DNA from: Microcaldota archaeon
GTDB lineage: Archaea > Micrarchaeota > Micrarchaeia > Anstonellales > JAGGVH01
Reading direction: 5' to 3'
NCBI GenBank assembly: GCA_020854835.1
Contig: JAHKLX010000003.1
Coordinates: 186,001 to 250,000 of the forward strand
Length of the DNA: 64,000 nucleotides
Every line of letters begins with the position of its first letter. Positions within the stretch are counted from its first letter, which is position 1. The notes beneath the pieces are model-generated. The model saw only the letters and a program-made list of their open reading frames with translations. It was not told the origin of the DNA and did no database searches. The translations under genes were made by a program, and so were the position numbers. Positions 23,993-57,477 of this stretch are shown one piece after another.

Positions 23993-24098
23993 CGGGCCTG
24001 GAGGGATTTGAACCCTCGACCTACTGCTTTCCCAAACAAACCTATTTCAAAGAGATTTTTAGGAGGCAGCCACTCTATCCAAGCTGAGCTACAGGCCC
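23993..24098 (-). tRNA. tRNA-Arg (CCT) with a 31-base intron
   Basis: The reverse complement gives acceptor GGGCCTG/CAGGCCC with discriminator G, D arm GCTC...GAGT, anticodon stem GCTGC/GCAGT, loop CTCCTA-A with anticodon CCT, and T arm GAGGG-TTCAAAT-CCCTC. The intron at 24029-24059 interrupts positions 37/38. Exon bases TCCT can pair with GGGA near the intron end, which fits the central helix of a bulge-helix-bulge splice motif. CCA is not encoded. A TTTTTAAA element at about 24123-24130 would place transcription just before the 5' end. Confidence 0.95.
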
Positions 24099-26640: not shown

Positions 26641-28120
26641 CACCCCATTCTTTTAACATTTCATCCATTGTTTTATCTTCTTTCACAGTTCTTAATTTTC
26701 TTCTTCTAACTTTAAACAAAAGTGGTTTATTAACTGCCTCTCCTGTCAAAAAAACTTCGCCCACACACAAGCCAGGCAGATCTTTTGCGATTTGATTCGT
26801 AAAACCCTCAGAACTTTCTTGTATATGTTTTATATCATTCGGATTTGTCACCCTTAAGATTGCATGTGTATTGCACTGAGATAAGATTGTTGTGTCTAAT
26901 TGGACAGGCCTTTGGGAAATAACAGTTAAAGAAGCCCCAAATTTCCTCCCCTCTCTCGCAATTGTTTCAAGTACGTGTTTACTAATATTTTTATCTTTTG
27001 AAGATTGATTTGCAAAATTATGGGCTTCTTCCACAATCAAAACAAAAGGAGGTATCTTATTGTTTTTTCGTTTATTAAACATTAAATTCGCAAAATGTGA
27101 AACAATAATTTGTTTTATTGTATTGTTGTCAATTTCTTTTAAATTGATTATGGATAATTGGTTTGGTCTAACCAACTCATCAACAGTTATGCTATCCACC
27201 TTTCCAAAAATACCATAATGCTTCAAGTATGAAAGCCATTTGGTTAGGCTGTTTTTTGTGGCTGTTCTTGCATCGCTTTTTTCAACTCTTTCAATCACAT
27301 CATCAATGTCATAAGCACCCTTTACTTCTTTTTCTATTTTATACAACTCAGTCGTTATATCTCTCGTTTGTGTCCTTGATAAAGGAAGCCATTGAACAAG
27401 AGTGGAAGGACCCACATTTTTAAAACCGATTTTAACATCTGATATTATATTTATTTTTTTTTGTATTCCATCTGGAAGTTCTTCAAATAATGAAACATAT
27501 TCCCCATGAACATCTACCAGAACAATAGGCAGCATCAGGTTTTTTTTCATAAGTTCTTCTAAAATTACTGATACAAAATAAGACTTTCCTGCACCTGAAA
27601 TTGCCAAAATGGCCAAATGTTTTTTCAACAATTTATTGGAATCTATCTCTATCTCCATATCATGTGCTTCCAAGTCTCCCAACCACAATCCATTTTCTTT
27701 TAATCCCAATACTTTTGAAATAGATTTTGGATCTGCCAGTTCAACATTTTGACCGGGTTTTGGGGGCTGCGAAATCCTTTGAAGTCTCCCCCCCTCCAGT
27801 TCCCCGAAGATTTGACAGCTAGCAACCAAAAATTCTGATTGTTCAGTGGGGTAAATTTTTGAAAGAGGTTGTTCTTTTTCATAATAAGCCACGGAATCTG
27901 CAGATTGATAATAAGGATTGGAGGATTCAAGTTCATCTACAAACCCAATAATATTATTTATTTTAACATATGAATTTTTTTTAACTTCTTTTTTTACAAC
28001 AAACTTAAATCTATTCGTATTTGGAGAATCCTCTGTAGAAATAATAGTCCCTATCACAGAAAATATCTCTCCGTAAATATTTATAATCGTTGGTGTTAAT
28101 ATTATAATTTGGTGATTCAT
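26594..28120 (-). CDS. HerA-like bipolar ATPase (DUF87)
   Basis: 508 residues. An N-terminal barrel (IFSVIGTIISTEDS through about 130) precedes a FtsK/HerA-type ATPase with Walker A SGAGKSYF, DVHGEYV, Walker B VLIVEEAHNF and the arginine region TIAREGRKFGASL. HerA hexamers translocate DNA, usually with the nuclease NurA, which was not seen here. The ATG at 28118-28120 directly touches the start of the divergent gene. A GTG start at 28054 (after GGAGAG) is an alternative that would free a promoter region. Confidence 0.92.
   Translation of the reverse strand: MNHQIIILTPTIINIYGEIFSVIGTIISTEDSPNTNRFKFVVKKEVKKNSYVKINNIIGFVDELESSNPYYQSADSVAYYEKEQPLSKIYPTEQSEFLVASCQIFGELEGGRLQRISQPPKPGQNVELADPKSISKVLGLKENGLWLGDLEAHDMEIEIDSNKLLKKHLAILAISGAGKSYFVSVILEELMKKNLMLPIVLVDVHGEYVSLFEELPDGIQKKINIISDVKIGFKNVGPSTLVQWLPLSRTQTRDITTELYKIEKEVKGAYDIDDVIERVEKSDARTATKNSLTKWLSYLKHYGIFGKVDSITVDELVRPNQLSIINLKEIDNNTIKQIIVSHFANLMFNKRKNNKIPPFVLIVEEAHNFANQSSKDKNISKHVLETIAREGRKFGASLTVISQRPVQLDTTILSQCNTHAILRVTNPNDIKHIQESSEGFTNQIAKDLPGLCVGEVFLTGEAVNKPLLFKVRRRKLRTVKEDKTMDEMLKEWGDGVEKEKTNKIEAFI
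28078..28087 (+). promoter_or_regulatory. TATA-like element for the gene at 28121
   Basis: TATTTATAAT lies within the start of the HerA-like gene. It predicts transcription from about 28109, just before the GGTGA site at 28111-28115. Confidence 0.45.
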
Positions 28121-28639
28121 ATGGAACTTAGTATAGAAAATTTAAAGAAAAACTGGATTTTGGTTTTAGTTGGGGTGTTTGTATTACTTGCCTTGCTGTC
28201 CGTGGCTGTTTTTGTCGGGCTCCCTATCTTTATAGCTCTTTTAATGAACACACAAGCCCCTGAAATGTGCGACCCCAGCTCACAAGGTTTTATTTGCAAT
28301 GATCCTATACCCGTTATTAATGGAAATAAGCTGGAGGGGAGAATTGGCAATGGAATGCAACAACCAGTAATGGTTTATCAAATCGGGTGCACAGATGATC
28401 TTTCTGCAGACCCAATGGTGTCATGCAATGGGGAATCTACTACACTTTCGGATTCTGAATACGGCACATTTGAAAGCCTGAGCAATTCCGAAGTTGTTTG
28501 CCCGAACTCTGATAACACCCCCATTGGCGGGAATTACAAGGGCAAGATGGTCATGGCCTACAAATTCCCTGAAGATGAGATTATAGCTGTTAATTGCCGC
28601 TACATGCATGCTACAATAAATATAAAGAAAGTGAGCTAG
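28121..28639 (+). CDS. Pilin-like paralogue without class III signal peptide
   Basis: 172 residues. One N-terminal membrane helix (WILVLVGVFVLLALLSVAVFVGL) anchors an ectodomain that is clearly homologous to the next gene's pilin: both share QAP/TPR-x-CD-x6-GFIC-D-P, a GRxGNG segment, CTDD, VCPN/TCPN-D, GG-Y-GK and NCRY/DCRY near the end. Six Cys are conserved. Unlike the neighbour, it lacks the class III peptidase motif Q-x-x-x-E. It is richer in GGC, AAG and TTC codons than surrounding genes. GGTGA precedes the ATG. Confidence 0.85.
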   Translation: MELSIENLKKNWILVLVGVFVLLALLSVAVFVGLPIFIALLMNTQAPEMCDPSSQGFICNDPIPVINGNKLEGRIGNGMQQPVMVYQIGCTDDLSADPMVSCNGESTTLSDSEYGTFESLSNSEVVCPNSDNTPIGGNYKGKMVMAYKFPEDEIIAVNCRYMHATINIKKVS

Positions 28640-28712: not shown

Positions 28713-28760
28713 CTTTATCTAGGTTATAAATTCAAACGTAATGATTATGAGGTGATAAAT

Positions 28761-29270
28761 GTGGCAAGAAAAGGTCAGGCAGCCATGGAATATTTAATGA
28801 CATACGGTTGGGCTTTGTTAATTATAATCGTGGTCATGGCAATATTCATTGGCTTGATATTAAATATTCAAACGCCAAGAGCGTGTGATTTCAGTACGGC
28901 AGGTTTTATTTGCCATGATCCAATGCCTGCAATAATGGGTTCTGATTTAAAAGGCAGACTTGGGAATGGCCCTCATCAGCAAGTAACAATACATGCTATT
29001 GCATGCACAGATGATAGAGGTTCGGATTCAAGTATATTAGGTGTAGATCCTTGTAGTGCAGCACCGTTAATAACTATGTCCCAAGGACAATACAAATCTT
29101 TTGATGAAATTTCCGGCGGCAGCTTAACGTGTCCAAATGCGGATACTGTGACTGTGGGTGGAACCTACACAGGAAAAGTTTGGATTGCATACACTTTGCA
29201 GGGCGATGACCAAGTAGGTATCGATTGCAGGTATGCAAATGCAGTAATAGCTGTTGAAAAGAGTGGTTAA
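28761..29270 (+). CDS. Type IV pilin-like protein with class III signal peptide
   Basis: 169 residues. The N-terminus reads ARKGQAAMEYLMTYGWALLII: a short basic leader, then the Q-A-A-M-E-Y motif cut by the archaeal class III (prepilin-like) peptidase, followed by a hydrophobic assembly helix. The ectodomain has six Cys and matches the preceding gene. It probably forms a major or minor subunit of a surface filament. The GTG start at 28761 is set by GGTGA at 28751-28755. A T-rich terminator follows. Confidence 0.9.
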   Translation: MARKGQAAMEYLMTYGWALLIIIVVMAIFIGLILNIQTPRACDFSTAGFICHDPMPAIMGSDLKGRLGNGPHQQVTIHAIACTDDRGSDSSILGVDPCSAAPLITMSQGQYKSFDEISGGSLTCPNADTVTVGGTYTGKVWIAYTLQGDDQVGIDCRYANAVIAVEKSG

Positions 29271-47967: not shown

Positions 47968-48975
47968 ATGTTAATAGTTCTTCTTTTTTCTCTTTTTTTT
48001 GCTACTGGTGCCCTAGCTGTTTCAATTGCTTTTGTTTTGCTTTTTTTAACATCTAAAACCAAAAGAAAATACACTATCAGATCATTTTTTTTCCCCTTCA
48101 AAAAAGAAAATAGTTTGGTAGAAAATCTTGGTGCAGTAATAGTCAGTCCATTTGCATGGATTGTTATTTCAATATGCATTGTAATCTTGTTTTTATTTAC
48201 CCTTCTAAACTCAATTATTACAGATACCTCATTCGGATTTATAAGTTACATATTCTCAGGAATAGCCGCATATTTTTTCTCATCTTTTTATTTGTTGATA
48301 TTATATTATACTGATTTTCATGAAAGAGAACCTCCTCAATTTATTATATCTTTGTTTTTATGGGGAATTGCATCAGCTTTGTTTTCTTTAATTTTTTCTT
48401 TAATTCTTCAAAGCATTTTCAGTGTTGTTTTACCCTTTGAAATATGTTTGATGTTGATTGGATCTGTGGGTATTGCACCACTGGTTGAAGAAATATTCAA
48501 ATCATTGGGAGTTGTTTTAGTTATTTTAACTCCTGAAGTTGATAATGCGTTGGATGGTGCATTATACGGGGGAACTGTTGGGCTAGGTTTTGCGTTTATT
48601 GAAAATTGGATATATTTTACTTCTCAGCCCATAACAGATTCAGCATCATGGATCTTTCTAGTTTTGCTAAGAGGTATGCTTTCCACATTGGGCCATTTAG
48701 TATTTACTGGAACAACAGGAGCGGTTCTTGCTTGGTTGAAATTTAAATACAAATATTGGTGGGTTTTCGCATTCCCTCTTTTTATCATAGGTATAGTGCT
48801 TCATGCAATATTTAATTTCATAGCAACTTTAGTTGAAGCAGTTTCCTTGCATTTGACAGGATGTCCCATCCCAATATTTTTGATTTTGTTTTTATTTACA
48901 ATTTTAATCTCTTTTGCTGTTTTTTATGTTGCTTCTGTTATTGGCGAGGGGTATAAAAATGAAAGAAAAAACTAA
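47968..48975 (+). CDS. PrsW-family intramembrane protease-like protein
   Basis: 335 residues with about eight membrane helices. PrsW/CPBP-like motifs are visible: APLVEEIFKSLGV (EExxK), GLGFAFIENWIYF (FxxxEN), GHLVFTGTTGAVL (H) and GIVLHAIFNF (HxxxN). PrsW cleaves membrane-anchored regulators in bacteria; targets in archaea are unknown. It starts 8 bases after tfb with GGAGAG, so it is probably co-transcribed. The stop overlaps the next start by 17 bases. Confidence 0.88.
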   Translation: MLIVLLFSLFFATGALAVSIAFVLLFLTSKTKRKYTIRSFFFPFKKENSLVENLGAVIVSPFAWIVISICIVILFLFTLLNSIITDTSFGFISYIFSGIAAYFFSSFYLLILYYTDFHEREPPQFIISLFLWGIASALFSLIFSLILQSIFSVVLPFEICLMLIGSVGIAPLVEEIFKSLGVVLVILTPEVDNALDGALYGGTVGLGFAFIENWIYFTSQPITDSASWIFLVLLRGMLSTLGHLVFTGTTGAVLAWLKFKYKYWWVFAFPLFIIGIVLHAIFNFIATLVEAVSLHLTGCPIPIFLILFLFTILISFAVFYVASVIGEGYKNERKN

Positions 48976-49483
48976 ACACTTCTTGGAAAAAAACATTATA
49001 TTTTTTGTTTTGTTTTTGGGAATTGGCCTTGGTTTTTTAATAGCAAACACATTTGTTTTTTCTGATTGTAGGGCAGATTTTAGGATGTATCCAGAAAATG
49101 ACGATGAAATAATCTATTTAATTGATTCTGCAAATGAGAAAATTTATGTTGAGATGTATGTTTTTTCTAATGAGGAAATAAGGGATGCAATAATAAGAGC
49201 TTCTGATAGGGGCATTGATGTCAGAATTATTTTAGAAAAATCCATTGCCCAAAACACTGAAACCTACAATAATCTGAAATCAAACGGGGTTGATGTGCGC
49301 TGGTCGGGGGGGTATTCTCTTAATCATGCAAAACTTGTAATTATAGATAAATTAGTTATTCTTGGAAGTCCTAATTTTTCGTGGAGCGCCTTTCATAAAA
49401 ATCGGGAGCATGCTGTTTTATTGAAATGTGATACTCATCCTTTGGAAAAAGAATTTTTAAAAGATTGGCTTTTATCAGGTTAA
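48959..49483 (+). CDS. Membrane-anchored phospholipase D-like protein (single HKD)
   Basis: 174 residues. An N-terminal membrane helix (IIFFVLFLGIGLGFLIANTFVF) is followed by one PLD domain: YVEMYVFSNEEIRDAIIRASDRGIDVRIILE, then the catalytic motif NHAKLVIIDKLVILGSPNFS (HxKx4D). One-HKD proteins of this type act as dimers, as in the endonuclease Nuc. The active site should face outside. The ATG at 48959 has GCGAGGGG upstream; the frame from 48914 is rejected. Confidence 0.9.
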   Translation: MKEKTKHFLEKNIIFFVLFLGIGLGFLIANTFVFSDCRADFRMYPENDDEIIYLIDSANEKIYVEMYVFSNEEIRDAIIRASDRGIDVRIILEKSIAQNTETYNNLKSNGVDVRWSGGYSLNHAKLVIIDKLVILGSPNFSWSAFHKNREHAVLLKCDTHPLEKEFLKDWLLSG

Positions 49484-51312: not shown

Positions 51313-51320
51313 ATATATAA
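51313..51320. promoter_or_regulatory. TATA element between glycogen synthase and the pilin-like operon
   Basis: ATATATAA is about 29 bases from the plus-strand start at 51345 and about 33 from the minus-strand start at 51282. The latter has a short ribosome-binding-site leader. It may serve both directions; a CTTTAAATAAAG further right is too close to 51345. Confidence 0.45.
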
Positions 51321-51344
51321 ACCTCACCCTTTAAATAAAGGATA

Positions 51345-51968
51345 ATGAAAGCATACATGTTCTCGTTTGATGCATTATTGGGATTTCTTGTATCACTTGC
51401 AATAGTTTATACTTTATTAATTGTTATACTTGTTCCGTATGGATATTATTATGAATTTGAACAGGCATATGTTGTTGCAAGAGATACAGGTTTGATGATG
51501 TATAATGCAAATTGGGATTCTGATACAACTTATTCTCAGAAATTAGCTTCTTTAACTCATGAATCAAATCCTCACCTAAGTTCATTTTGTGGCGGATTCA
51601 TAGCAAATGATAAAAGCATTAGAAATATTGTTCCTTCCCAGTATGCTTATGTAATTGAATATTATAACACTACTGAAGGAGAGTGGGAAGAAATATGCAA
51701 TGTAAATGCAACTTACGATACTACTGTGTCTTGCGACAGCTTTAGAAAATTCAAAGTTTATGCTCCTCTCTTAATCGCAGATTATGCGGGCGTCGGGTTT
51801 AATGAGGGCGATTTGCCTTATTGTTATGTTTCTTGTAAAGGTTATAAGGGCGATGATGATTATGCAGATCCTGGAATGTGTTTTTATACTCCTTGTGATG
51901 CGACAACTGATATGGCAACCAGACCTCCTGTTTTTACAGGTGTGGTGCGAATAGGTGTGTGTATATGA
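51345..51968 (+). CDS. Pilin-like surface protein, FSFD type, 207 aa
   Basis: The N-terminus reads YMFSFDALLGFLVSLAIVYTLLIVIL, a short leader directly joined to a hydrophobic helix with an acidic residue at its start, like archaeal minor pilins. The ectodomain contains eight or more Cys and aromatic-rich segments (DLPYCYVSCKGYKGDDD). No ribosome-binding site is seen, so it is leaderless. The last bases overlap the next start (ATGA). This is the first gene of a six-gene cluster of similarly anchored proteins. Confidence 0.75.
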   Translation: MKAYMFSFDALLGFLVSLAIVYTLLIVILVPYGYYYEFEQAYVVARDTGLMMYNANWDSDTTYSQKLASLTHESNPHLSSFCGGFIANDKSIRNIVPSQYAYVIEYYNTTEGEWEEICNVNATYDTTVSCDSFRKFKVYAPLLIADYAGVGFNEGDLPYCYVSCKGYKGDDDYADPGMCFYTPCDATTDMATRPPVFTGVVRIGVCI

Positions 51969-53863
51969 AAAAAGGAGTTTTTTTTACAGTTATAATGGTT
52001 TTATTTTTGTTTGTACTTAGTATGTCTCTTACAAAATGGTCGCAAGGAGTTAAAATGAATGAATATCGTGTTTCAAGACATGTTTATTTGGATTCTGTAG
52101 TAACAGCTTCTCAAATCTTAAGTGATGATAATATTGAAAAAATAACTATTATTTCGGCCAGGCACGCGCTATTCAAGTTGGCAAACCACACTTCAGAAGA
52201 TGAATTTACTAAGATTAACCCTTCTTCATCTGAAACTTTTGTGGATTATTGTCATGGGGTTGAAAATAGAGATACTTGCAGTGTTTCAGATGCACTGGGC
52301 CTTTTGATGTACAACGGCTCTGTTCCAAGTTCTTATTTCAATGGTGGTCCAGAGTACAAATATTCTGATGAGGATATTATGTACACTCTCAACTATTTTA
52401 ATAAAAGTGCCATAGAAGTTTGCAATGCTATAGGGTGGGTTTGTTATCTTTCAGAACCATATGATATTTCTATTCAACAGATCAACCCATTTGATGTGGA
52501 ATTCAATTATACTATAAACAAAACAATTCAGGATTCAACAAGTGATTTTCAAGTGAATCAATTTCCTATTAACATATCTGTGGTTATTCCCGTAGATGGA
52601 ATGCCCGATCCACTAACAACCCATCTGATGAGGCAGAATGCTTTTTCTGCAACAGGGGATCATATGAGATTGATATATCGGGATCCGGGAACAATAACAA
52701 CAAACTGGTTTAAAACTGTAGAAGTAGTGGATAATCCTGGAAAAGGATTTGTTTATGGTGCAATAACAAGTGATTGGAATTTAGACTCAACATCTTCCCA
52801 TAGGTATATATTCGTGGGCAAAAACGATGGTTTAAAAAATATAATATTGTCAGGTTCAACATTAGATAAATTTGGCGGGTATATTATTGAAAAGGTAGAA
52901 AGAAAAGATATTGATACCTATGCTGGAAATGAAATCGTTCATGTATCTCATACTTGTGCAGACCCGGTAACTATCGAATGTTCTATAGATTACTATGATA
53001 CTATCTCTTATGAAGAAAATTGCGTTATTGATTGTATAAACATAACAGAAACTTATGGGAGGTTGGATATTAACATAAATTATCCAATTCCTCTTGCTTG
53101 TGCAGGTCTTCAAAATGAGATTTCTTCACTATGTAGAACCCAATTTTTTAATACTCACACCTCTAGAAAAGAATATGTTGTGGAAAACGTTTATGATGTT
53201 CCTTACATCAAATTAGATTCTGCATTTGACCCCGCCACATTGGATCTGAATTATCCCTCCAATCATTTATATGATGCGGACGATTATTATCCTGGTACTC
53301 CTAATCATGGAATTTTAATAAATACACAAAACTCTGCAAATTCCTCAGAATGGGATTTAGAAGATGGAACTTATGACTACCTTTCTTCATTTGAAGATGT
53401 TTATGATCTTTTGAATGCCCATCCTAATGCCCACAGGCTCCACAACATTGAACCTTTAAGAGATATGGCAATTTGTGGATTCTTCACAGTCGATACGCGT
53501 GCGCCTTCTTTCTTCCAAAGAATGGTTTCTGAAGGGGATAGAAAAGCAAGCGATGATTACGGAATATATTCCTTTGCTGTAGGAAAATGGGCAATAGATG
53601 ATACAGATCCTACTGAAGTGTGGTCAAGCGTTGATTTTGAATATCATAAGTGTTATAGGGGGAGTTCATGTGAATATGCACGTGTTATAAAAGGTATGCC
53701 GGGGTGCAAAGATTATAAAATGTGTGCGATAACAGATATAACCTTCAATCCAAACGTTGATGGTGTGGGCCAAGTTGCCGTTGACACAGAATTTGGAAAA
53801 AATGTTTTTGGAATATGGGATCAGTTTGTATGCGAAAAGGATCATATGACTGATTGTTATTAG
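51965..53863 (+). CDS. Large surface protein with N-terminal pilin-like helix, 632 aa
   Basis: Residues 1-25 (KKGVFFTVIMVLFLFVLSMSL) form a single membrane helix. The rest is an extracellular, mostly beta ectodomain with many Cys (pairs at C-x3-C and CIDYYDT-type spacing) and N-glycosylation-type sites such as NKT, NIT and NTT. It is not recognised as a named family. The ATG at 51965 follows AGGTGTG; the GTG at 51959 is less likely. It may be the tip or adhesin of the filament encoded by its neighbours. Confidence 0.78.
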   Translation: MKKGVFFTVIMVLFLFVLSMSLTKWSQGVKMNEYRVSRHVYLDSVVTASQILSDDNIEKITIISARHALFKLANHTSEDEFTKINPSSSETFVDYCHGVENRDTCSVSDALGLLMYNGSVPSSYFNGGPEYKYSDEDIMYTLNYFNKSAIEVCNAIGWVCYLSEPYDISIQQINPFDVEFNYTINKTIQDSTSDFQVNQFPINISVVIPVDGMPDPLTTHLMRQNAFSATGDHMRLIYRDPGTITTNWFKTVEVVDNPGKGFVYGAITSDWNLDSTSSHRYIFVGKNDGLKNIILSGSTLDKFGGYIIEKVERKDIDTYAGNEIVHVSHTCADPVTIECSIDYYDTISYEENCVIDCINITETYGRLDININYPIPLACAGLQNEISSLCRTQFFNTHTSRKEYVVENVYDVPYIKLDSAFDPATLDLNYPSNHLYDADDYYPGTPNHGILINTQNSANSSEWDLEDGTYDYLSSFEDVYDLLNAHPNAHRLHNIEPLRDMAICGFFTVDTRAPSFFQRMVSEGDRKASDDYGIYSFAVGKWAIDDTDPTEVWSSVDFEYHKCYRGSSCEYARVIKGMPGCKDYKMCAITDITFNPNVDGVGQVAVDTEFGKNVFGIWDQFVCEKDHMTDCY

Positions 53864-53871
53864 GTGAATAT

Positions 53872-54336
53872 ATGAAAGGACAAGCATCTATGGAAACTAT
53901 TATCTTGCTCGGATTTATCATACTTATGACAATTCCAATCCTTATGATTTTTTTTAGTATTGATAGAACAACTCCTGCTTTAGGACAAGCAAGAGCTTCT
54001 GTTCAAATCATTGCAGATCATTCAAATAGAGTTTATGCACAAGGTAGTGATACACAAATCATAACAACAATCGCAGTTCCACAATACTGTAAAAAAATAA
54101 CCATCCAAGATGTTCCAGGACATGGGGGACAAATAATTTTTCATATGTGGACAGCAGATGGGGATATAGAGGTTTATCAAAAAACCTATGCCCCTTTGGA
54201 ATATTCTGAAGAACTAACAAACTATCGAAAACCATCTCCAGATTCATTTCTTACCCCTGGATTGCAAAGAATAAAAATCTCTTTAGTTGATGGAGCAACA
54301 TCGGGAGAAAAGGTGATAAAAATTGAACCCTATTAA
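53872..54336 (+). CDS. Class III signal-peptide pilin-like protein, 154 aa
   Basis: The N-terminus KGQASMETIILLGFIILM has the class III peptidase motif (Q followed four residues on by E) and an assembly helix. The ectodomain is strand-rich (TIAVPQYCKKITIQDVPG, QIIFHMWTADGDIEVYQ). TAGGTGAAT precedes the ATG at 53872. The 3' end overlaps the next start by 14 bases. Confidence 0.85.
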   Translation: MKGQASMETIILLGFIILMTIPILMIFFSIDRTTPALGQARASVQIIADHSNRVYAQGSDTQIITTIAVPQYCKKITIQDVPGHGGQIIFHMWTADGDIEVYQKTYAPLEYSEELTNYRKPSPDSFLTPGLQRIKISLVDGATSGEKVIKIEPY

Positions 54337-54760
54337 AGGACAAGCAGCTATGGAATTTTATATGTATATTTCAATGTTTTTATTATTTTTAGCTGTAATA
54401 ATGATAGTTTTGTTGAATCTTTCATCAACTGAAGTTGGTAAATATGATTCATACACTATAGAAGAAACAGCAGGTATGTTTGCAGACATTATACATTCTT
54501 CTTATGTGGCAGGTAACGGGTTTAACGGGTCCTTCAAAGTGCCAACAGATATCGACGGATTAAATTACACTACTTATTTTACCAATGGGTATGTTATAGT
54601 AACACAACACGGAACAAAAAACTTAACTGCGGTAAGACCTCTTGTCACTGAAGATATTATAAACGCAACAGGCCATACTGCATTCAGCTATACCTCACGA
54701 GAAATGTCTGGAAGAATCTACGTATTAAACAATCTGGGCCAATTAAATATAACATCGTAA
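54323..54760 (+). CDS. Class III signal-peptide pilin-like protein, 145 aa (TTG start)
   Basis: The sequence KGQAAMEFYMYISMFLLFLAVIM carries the class III cleavage motif and assembly helix. The ectodomain ends in a strand-rich region with NIT and NYT glycosylation-type sites. No ATG exists before the signal motif. The TTG at 54323 has AAGGTGAT six bases upstream, which decides the start. Confidence 0.83.
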   Translation: MNPIKGQAAMEFYMYISMFLLFLAVIMIVLLNLSSTEVGKYDSYTIEETAGMFADIIHSSYVAGNGFNGSFKVPTDIDGLNYTTYFTNGYVIVTQHGTKNLTAVRPLVTEDIINATGHTAFSYTSREMSGRIYVLNNLGQLNITS

Positions 54761-54772
54761 TTAACGCAAACA

Positions 54773-54780
54773 ATATAAAT
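54773..54780 (+). promoter_or_regulatory. TATA box for the gene at 54802
   Basis: ATATAAAT is centred 25.5 bases before the ATG at 54802. It indicates a second, leaderless transcription unit inside the pilin-like cluster. Confidence 0.5.
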
Positions 54781-54801
54781 TATTCTATATTAATCTATAA
54801 T

Positions 54802-55356
54802 ATGCGAGGCCAATATTTCTCATTTGATATTATTATAGCATTGGCATTATTTGTAATGACTTTTATTTTTGTCATGTCTTATTGGTTTAGTATTAACGCG
54901 GTTATGGAAAGTCAGTATTCATCTGCACAAGATGTTTCTCAAAGAATAGGAAATGCTTTTTTTACTCCTGGGATTCCTGAAGATTGGGAAACAGGGATTT
55001 TCGATGATGCGCGCGAAATAGGTTTAACACAAGGATATAATAATTCAGTATTATCTAGCCAAAAATGGATAAAAATGCAAAATGTTGCAAATCTGCCAGG
55101 TCCTTTGGGTTATGAAAATTTCAAAGACAAAATAAATTCTGCAGGTTGGGAAGTTTGTTTGAATTTAACCATTGTTGAAATATCTGGCACAGGTGGAACA
55201 GCAGGGAATTGTACACTTCCAGATTCTGCACATTCTAATGCTTATTATAGGATTGGGGCCGTCAATGTAACAACAGGCCCCTCAAGTTGGGAAGTTAAAC
55301 CTGCTATTTTAAAGGTTACAGTTTGGCGTGATGCAAATACGTCAATGATAAGATAA
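54802..55356 (+). CDS. Pilin-like surface protein, FSFD type, 184 aa
   Basis: The N-terminus RGQYFSFDIIIALALFVMTFIFVM matches the FSFD-type leader of the gene at 51345: a basic residue, then F-S-F-D and a long hydrophobic helix. The ectodomain has three or four Cys, a Gly/Thr loop (SGTGGTAGNC) and NLT, NVT and NTS sites. It is followed after 9 bases by the fibronectin-type protein. Confidence 0.78.
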   Translation: MRGQYFSFDIIIALALFVMTFIFVMSYWFSINAVMESQYSSAQDVSQRIGNAFFTPGIPEDWETGIFDDAREIGLTQGYNNSVLSSQKWIKMQNVANLPGPLGYENFKDKINSAGWEVCLNLTIVEISGTGGTAGNCTLPDSAHSNAYYRIGAVNVTTGPSSWEVKPAILKVTVWRDANTSMIR

Positions 55357-55365
55357 GGTGATTAT

Positions 55366-57477
55366 ATGGAAGATCAAAAATATTGGTATCCTGCTTTTTT
55401 CTTTGCAGTATTATTAGTTATTATTGCCGCGGTTGCAATATTTACTTTGTTTATTATAAACTATCCTCCTGAAGCCCCAAGAGATTTAAACATAGAGCAA
55501 GTTTCAACAGGTGCAAATCTTGAGTGGGCAGATTCCTTTTCACAAGATGTTGTTCAATACAATATATATCGTTCCCGCACCATCGGAGATGTGGGAAATT
55601 TAATTGCTGAAACTGACCAAACAGAATATTTAGATTTTTTAACTGAAGATGGGGTATACTATTATATCGTCAAATCTTTTGATGGTGAATTCGAAAGTGA
55701 GAACAACGAACAAAAAGAGTTTTATTATGATTTAACTGGGCCAGAAATTCATGATATCACTCTTCATACAGGCACGAGAAAAACCAACACCGAGGATATA
55801 ATGTTTTATTTTTCTGTAGATTCTGATGCAACCGAATGTCAAATAATAAATATAACTGAGTGGTTTCCAAATACTGGCATTTATTCTTATACTTTGAACA
55901 CATCCAACAATTCACATTCATTTGATTTTATATGTAAAGACAAGTGGGGAAATACTGGCCCTCAAAAAAATATTGAAATTATCTTTGACAACACTCCCCC
56001 TACAATCACCAAAATTCAACCAGATTTCTTTGTTGCTGAAGGGGATGTAGTATTTATTTTCACTGTGGACAAAGTATCTCAATGTACACTTAGTTTTGGT
56101 GAAGAGAAGATCTGGGAGGGAGAGGTTTATGGTAATATTTCAATCCCTGCAACAATTGAAAAAACAAATTATGTTTTTAGCTGTATTGATGAAGCGGGAA
56201 ACACAGAATATCTAACAGGTTCAGTTGAAGTTAAACTAACAGATATATTCTCTTTGATAATAAATAATGGAGAATCTGTTACAAACTCTCGAAATGTCGA
56301 TTTAGATTTCATATTCACACCCTTTTTAGAAGGCATAACTTGTGAGGTTTATAATGTTAAATTTGTAAGTTCTGCAGTATCTCAAGAAGGTGAGATGTAT
56401 TCTTTCGCTCCAGAGGGGGATACCACATTAGATTGGGAAATAACCTCTGGCTATGGGAGAAAATATGTTTTTGCAGCGTGTCAATTAGATAATCGAGTAG
56501 TCGGAACATCCATCGTTTCAGTTGATTACAAAAAAGAAAGTGAAGATTCAACTCCTCCATCAAATACAGATGATTCTTATAGCGGAGCTCCCAAAAACCT
56601 AAATATTAAAATAAACAATGGGGAAGCATACACAAATTCTTTAACAGTTTATTTAACATTAAACGCGAATTATGCAACAGATTGCGCATATAAAACTAAA
56701 CCTGGGGATGATTGGTCTTCATGGTCCAGATATGCCACAAGTAAAACTTTATTCCTACCATATTCTGAAAATACTGACACTTACACAGTTTATTATAAAT
56801 GCAAAAACAGACATGGCGAAAGCAATTCTGTAAGTGATAGCATAATTTTTGATGATGTTCCTCCAGGAATAGCAACATATTTAACAGCAGATTATAATGG
56901 CAGAGGAATTTACCTAAGTTGGAAACATGCAAATGATGCAGTTAGATATGATATTTATCGGATGGCGGCAGGCTCTTCAAGACCAAGTCCTGGCACTTCA
57001 ACATTATCACTATACCGCAAGGTGGGTTCAACTTCTGGCAGCAACTATGAAGACACTGCTTTATCCTCATCAGGTTACTACTATTATTATATCGTTGCGA
57101 TTGACAGAGCAGAAAACAGAGGTGAAGCTTCTGAAACAATTTCTGCATTTGCAGATGTCGATGCACCAGAAGTACGCATAACATCCCCAAGCAGTGGCTC
57201 TCAAACTACCGCGTCCTCAATTTTATTTTCTTTCGTAGCAACTGACAATCATGCATCTTCTTTATCTTGTTCAGCTATTCAAAGTGGGGCAGAAATATGG
57301 TCTGGTTCATCTGTTTCTGGAAATAAAGTTTCATTTACAGTTAGTCTTTCAACTGGACAAAACACAATAAAAGTTGGATGTTCAGATGAATACCATACTG
57401 GGCAGGCATCAATTTCAATATTGAGGACATCAGGCTCTGAAACACAAGATCCTGATCTTCCACCACCTGCATCATAA
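55366..57477 (+). CDS. Membrane-anchored fibronectin type III/Ig-like repeat protein, 703 aa
   Basis: An N-terminal anchor helix (YPAFFFAVLLVIIAAVAIFTLFII) is followed by tandem beta domains. The first (about 35-125) and a later one (about 495-600) have the FnIII signature, P-x-x-L, then W-A/KHAN, then Y-x-IYR and YYYIVxxxD. Between and after lie Ig-like domains with paired Cys and the phrase TITKIQP or VRITSPSSG. The protein ends in a Pro tail. Likely a surface adhesin or stalk. AAGGTGATT precedes the ATG. Confidence 0.85.
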   Translation: MEDQKYWYPAFFFAVLLVIIAAVAIFTLFIINYPPEAPRDLNIEQVSTGANLEWADSFSQDVVQYNIYRSRTIGDVGNLIAETDQTEYLDFLTEDGVYYYIVKSFDGEFESENNEQKEFYYDLTGPEIHDITLHTGTRKTNTEDIMFYFSVDSDATECQIINITEWFPNTGIYSYTLNTSNNSHSFDFICKDKWGNTGPQKNIEIIFDNTPPTITKIQPDFFVAEGDVVFIFTVDKVSQCTLSFGEEKIWEGEVYGNISIPATIEKTNYVFSCIDEAGNTEYLTGSVEVKLTDIFSLIINNGESVTNSRNVDLDFIFTPFLEGITCEVYNVKFVSSAVSQEGEMYSFAPEGDTTLDWEITSGYGRKYVFAACQLDNRVVGTSIVSVDYKKESEDSTPPSNTDDSYSGAPKNLNIKINNGEAYTNSLTVYLTLNANYATDCAYKTKPGDDWSSWSRYATSKTLFLPYSENTDTYTVYYKCKNRHGESNSVSDSIIFDDVPPGIATYLTADYNGRGIYLSWKHANDAVRYDIYRMAAGSSRPSPGTSTLSLYRKVGSTSGSNYEDTALSSSGYYYYYIVAIDRAENRGEASETISAFADVDAPEVRITSPSSGSQTTASSILFSFVATDNHASSLSCSAIQSGAEIWSGSSVSGNKVSFTVSLSTGQNTIKVGCSDEYHTGQASISILRTSGSETQDPDLPPPAS

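Follow-up and report, generated by a model that had tools for sequence, protein, structure and literature searches.

A conserved set of five pilin-like proteins, a probable minor-pilin module of an Epd-like type IV pilus in Micrarchaeota

Introduction

In Methanococcus maripaludis, the minor-pilin operon is separate from the ATPase and platform genes and from the major-pilin gene (PMC3875500), and the clade 1 archaeal type IV pilus (T4P) loci usually encode two TadC proteins and at least five minor pilins (Makarova et al. 2016; PMC4858521). Type IV filaments start from a complex of minor pilins at the tip, which has a cap subunit lacking Glu5, and in the bacterial filaments the subunit without Glu5 is the tip cap (PMC10191384; PMC6370729). 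Two T4P systems have been reported in Micrarchaeota archaeon Mia14, one of which is of the Methanococci/Thermococci group (PMC5498576).

The locus described here encodes five pilin-like proteins, P1-P5 (the quintet), and a sixth surface protein, P6. Its split arrangement is shared with the Epd pilus of M. maripaludis, to which the quintet is likened by gene arrangement; an ATPase-TadC-TadC operon plus five subunits were found, which is the composition expected of clade 1 (Epd-like) T4P, where one ATPase goes with two platform genes and several minor pilins. It differs from the Epd system in that the peptidase gene is outside this operon, and whereas the described M. maripaludis candidates have Gln at +1 and Glu at +5, three of the five quintet leaders do not. 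Mia14 belongs to the same phylum, but in the order studied here the quintet lies apart from the engine; set side by side by description, the Mia14 T4P loci are likely to be the linked form of the quintet system. The bacterial tip complexes PilHIJK and GspHIJK likewise contain one large acid-less subunit among several acidic ones, although homology to the quintet is undetectable and two quintet subunits use Asp at +6.

P1-P5 are best read as minor pilins that form the tip complex from which assembly starts in an Epd-like archaeal type IV pilus of Micrarchaeota, a reading to which a probability of roughly 0.7 is given. What is new here is the conserved five-gene set, its leader pattern and its engine.

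The gene cluster and its source

The window is the whole 64,000 nucleotide stretch that was analysed, positions 186001-250000 of contig C5 in genome G000; coordinates without a contig label are positions within it. The assembly is 2.04 Mb in 145 contigs, 87% complete and 5.6% contaminated, and the source archaeon, a member of the Micrarchaeota, is small and probably host-dependent.

An ORF check of the window confirmed the six genes of the first-pass annotation at their positions, all on the forward strand and either overlapping or with at most 41 bp between neighbours. P1 (51345-51968) is pilin-like with the leader MKA-YMFSFD, and the F-S-F-D leader that it was said to share with P5 (54802-55356; MRG-QYFSFD) is present in both. 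P2 (51965-53863) is a large, Cys-rich pilin-like protein with the acid-less leader MKKG-VFFTV; its ORF opens at GTG 51959, and counted from the Met at 51965 it has the 632 residues first given, including 17 Cys. P3 (53872-54336; MKG-QASME) and P4 (54323-54760; KG-QAAME) carry the class III leaders claimed for them, and P6 (55366-57477) is membrane-anchored with probable Ig-like repeats. A TATA-like box, TATATAAA (51314-51321, forward strand), is found 24-31 nt upstream of the P1 ATG; judged from the sequence it is a candidate operon promoter, which makes a single transcript for the cluster plausible.

Just upstream of the cluster (47968-49483, forward strand) are genes for a PrsW-type membrane protease and a PLD-type nuclease-like protein. 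Elsewhere in the window, Rfam matches to tRNAs of 117 and 106 bases are present on the reverse strand (1562-1678 and 23993-24098); these were uncalled by ARAGORN under bacterial settings and are probably intron-containing tRNAs.

Conservation in related genomes

A search with P2 alone in the contig collection detected no relatives, and whole-genome searches and a P5 profile were used instead. With a single-sequence search P2 was found in 87 of 118 genomes (its own counted), and with a P2 profile in 78 of the 83 relatives within the order and in 161 of 301 Micrarchaeota genomes. Its absence from five of the 83 is no more than expected from draft incompleteness. Both P2 and the ATPase are near-universal in the order, and a correlation of their presence and absence was therefore set aside.

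Conservation of gene order in relatives had been set beforehand as a test of the first-pass reading, and the order P1-P2-P3-P4-P5 around P2 is kept in nearly all loci read from the order, while the genes flanking the quintet differ from family to family. In families f13, f16 and f17 and some others the set mostly reads P3-P4-P5-P1-P2, which is the same cycle opened elsewhere. As five proteins keep a fixed order across strongly diverged genomes, it can be ruled out that P1-P5 are chance ORFs. In f13 and f17 (L087-L090, L100 and L205-L208) the P4 homologue reaches ~900-1150 aa and P1 ~620-890 aa, and these proteins have large ectodomains behind pilin-like leaders.

The sixth gene does not belong to this set as had been proposed; the only P6 homologue found is in the second genome of the genus, and P6 was rejected as a conserved tip subunit for this reason. 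The FnIII/Ig repeats claimed for it are hinted at by Ig-type Pfam matches to P6 and its genus homologue, all sub-threshold, and a phmmer search of P6 against the PDB found nothing. P6 would be a surface protein specific to the genus, joined to the operon and co-transcribed with the quintet.

Leader pattern of the five subunits

Leader positions were counted from the predicted cut, which removes the basic residues and the G/A behind them. Glu is at +5 in all 36 aligned sequences of P3 and P4, Asp is at +6 in all 37 of P1 and P5, and positions +1 to +22 of P2 have no acidic residue in any of the 18 sequences aligned. Of the five, only P3 and P4 thus fit a class III leader (basic residues, G/A, Gln at +1, Glu at +5 and a hydrophobic helix), with P1 and P5 having Asp at +6 and P2 being acid-less. 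Diverged sets inspected by eye follow this pattern as well, apart from occasional exceptions. The two subunits with Asp at +6 in place of Glu at +5 count against a pilin set, unless the cut is one residue later, which would bring the Asp of P1 and P5 to +5.

As the sole quintet member without an acidic residue near its N-terminus, P2 is, judging by its leader, likely to be a better tip candidate than P6. By analogy it may work like the tip cap GspK/PilK; it is not classed as a member of that family, as P2 had no sequence or fold match to GspK/PilK in the PDB.

Structure and database searches

The P5 model (18 sequences; pLDDT 89) has helices at 3-38 and 41-53 followed by strands, and the P2 model (pLDDT 65) is reliable in part only. 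The long N-terminal helix and strands of P5 agree with a pilin-like structure, but Foldseek gave no significant PDB match to the P5 or the P2 model, the only matches being of ribosomal and LptE type and all insignificant. PDB sequence searches with P2, P3, P5 and P6 returned nothing significant and no match to solved pilins, and none of the six cluster proteins matched Pfam or NCBIfam above cut-off. DUF7287 (PF23958), a family that occurs in Haloferax volcanii too, is matched by nine of the 18 P5 members (best E 9e-8), but for the P5 of the window the match is below cut-off (E 0.03). The modelled folds agree with pilins without proving a pilin fold.

Assembly engine and prepilin peptidase

No T2SSE or T2SSF domain was found within the window, in line with the first-pass view that neither an ATPase nor a TadC-like platform is encoded there, and the assembly system of the quintet is encoded elsewhere. 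The genome-wide search for PilB/TadC and class III peptidase genes that the annotation had proposed found four T2SSE-type ATPases with TadC-like partners adjoining, eight T2SSF matches over cut-off and two Peptidase_A24 candidates; a genome without an engine is therefore rejected. Of all the machinery candidates, a Peptidase_A24-like protein (C5:182739-183659) lies closest to the window, which begins ~2.3 kb after it; its Pfam match is below the cut-off. The second, on C71, is over the cut-off and is carried by a 6.3 kb contig of this slightly contaminated assembly.

An ATPase-TadC-TadC operon adjoins the quintet, or the part of it that is on the contig, in 17 loci of other families. Within the order and the nearest families of the class, none of the 27 loci has an engine within ~10 kb of the quintet (some are on contigs shorter than this), and in some f7 genomes the two share a contig at a distance of 16-32 kb. 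In a tree of 56 ATPases, those linked to long-P2 sets in f13, f16 and f17 form one clade (100/100) with C5a, the ATPase at C5:81403 in this genome and its counterparts in the order; those linked to short-P2 sets in f18 and f19 are in a separate clade (100/100), and the tree leaves out the ATPases of short-P2 loci found later.

A second, short quintet with the same leader pattern is present at C5:85943-89321 (L046 9943-13321), between two ATPase-TadC-TadC operons, and also in G001. Since the C5a operon of the genus carries this short quintet, the window quintet may depend on C5a, on a different one of the four ATPases or on the two together. Orthology argues strongly for assigning the window set to the C5a engine, and local context does so less strongly. 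In many genomes of the order a coiled-coil protein of ~490-580 aa precedes the C5a ATPase (L046 3600-5336); this protein may be a conserved cytoplasmic component of the engine.

Major pilin candidate and alternative readings

The C5a operon of most genomes read from the order consists of an ATPase, a variable protein, two TadC genes and then a pilin starting KGQAAMEYLMTYGWA. A profile built from 11 relatives of this pilin that follow the second TadC matched a PilA-type pilin in the window (KGQAAMEYLMTYGWALL; 28752-29270, forward strand; E=9e-36), which is the likely major subunit and contains the only occurrence of the PilA motif pattern in the genome. Directly before it, the same profile matched a PilA-like paralogue without a class III leader (28109-28639, forward strand; E=1.3e-15). 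The cluster had been described as complete, with major, minor and tip subunits; this was right for the minor and tip subunits, with the pilin-like P1-P5 belonging together, but the likely major pilin is separate, and its homologues end the ATPase/TadC operon in relatives.

In most of the order genomes read a PilA-type pilin is encoded alongside the C5a engine, which fits a real pilus and makes it rather unlikely that the quintet builds only a short pseudopilus, serving as a piston for secretion or as a scaffold at the surface (T2SS-like or bindosome-like). Five pilin-like genes of which one is large and acid-less do resemble the T2SS pseudopilins GspG-K, and the C5a ATPase does match the model of the bindosome protein BasE, but far below cut-off, and the archaellum motor and TadA models match it better. 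In a non-systematic look at the loci read, the neighbours of the quintet included no secretion partners and no substrate-binding proteins.

PilA also bears on whether the quintet could form its own filament, independent of PilA and with P3 or P4 as the major subunit, as their canonical class III leaders and the lack of linkage between the cluster and PilA and the engine in the order would allow. This is more doubtful still, as single-copy, large and heterogeneous subunits in a fixed order resemble minor pilins, and as PilA goes with the engine within the order and, in several families, is located close to the linked quintets. Least probable of all is that P1-P5 are ordinary membrane-anchored surface proteins which keep their N-terminal helix and stay unassembled, for although solved pilins gave no significant fold match to the P5 and P2 models and three of the five lack a canonical QxxxE leader, the acidic position is invariant for each gene, a basic-G/A junction is present and linkage to ATPase, TadC and PilA genes is seen repeatedly.

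Proposed mechanism

For the preferred reading, that P1-P5 are the minor-pilin set of an Epd-like pilus, we propose that P1-P5 and PilA (28752) would be inserted into the membrane, and that a FlaK-like prepilin peptidase would then cleave them behind K-G/A. P1-P5 would pack into a short initiating complex with P2 uppermost, where it would not need an N-terminal acid as no subunit is proposed to be above it. The C5:81403 ATPase and its two TadC-like platform proteins would then push PilA subunits in beneath this complex, and the Cys-rich ectodomain of P2 would reach the pilus tip and probably bind a surface or a host cell.

More tentatively, the leaders may point to a five-part initiator with a different core contact from the usual one, in which two subunits have Asp at +6, two have Glu at +5 and one has none. 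Some lineages would then have two paralogous quintets, and the phylum would run two pilus systems that differ at the tip, with the host-binding end presented by the unlinked long-P2 set; this extension of the minor-pilin reading is possible and is considered well short of probable.

Significance

The Micrarchaeota are a largely uncultured, host-associated phylum, and in one of its orders P1-P5 form a probable pilus module of five genes that is near-universal and unannotated. The module is a candidate for the means by which DPANN archaea, Micrarchaeota among them, hold on to their hosts, and it comes with a named engine, a likely major pilin and a likely tip protein. Pilin-like subunits that are acid-less or have Asp at +6 would escape the usual leader searches, and counts of archaeal pilus genes are therefore probably too low. 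If the five-part initiator were true, class III leader predictors would overlook such subunits, which may be hidden in other archaeal pilus operons.
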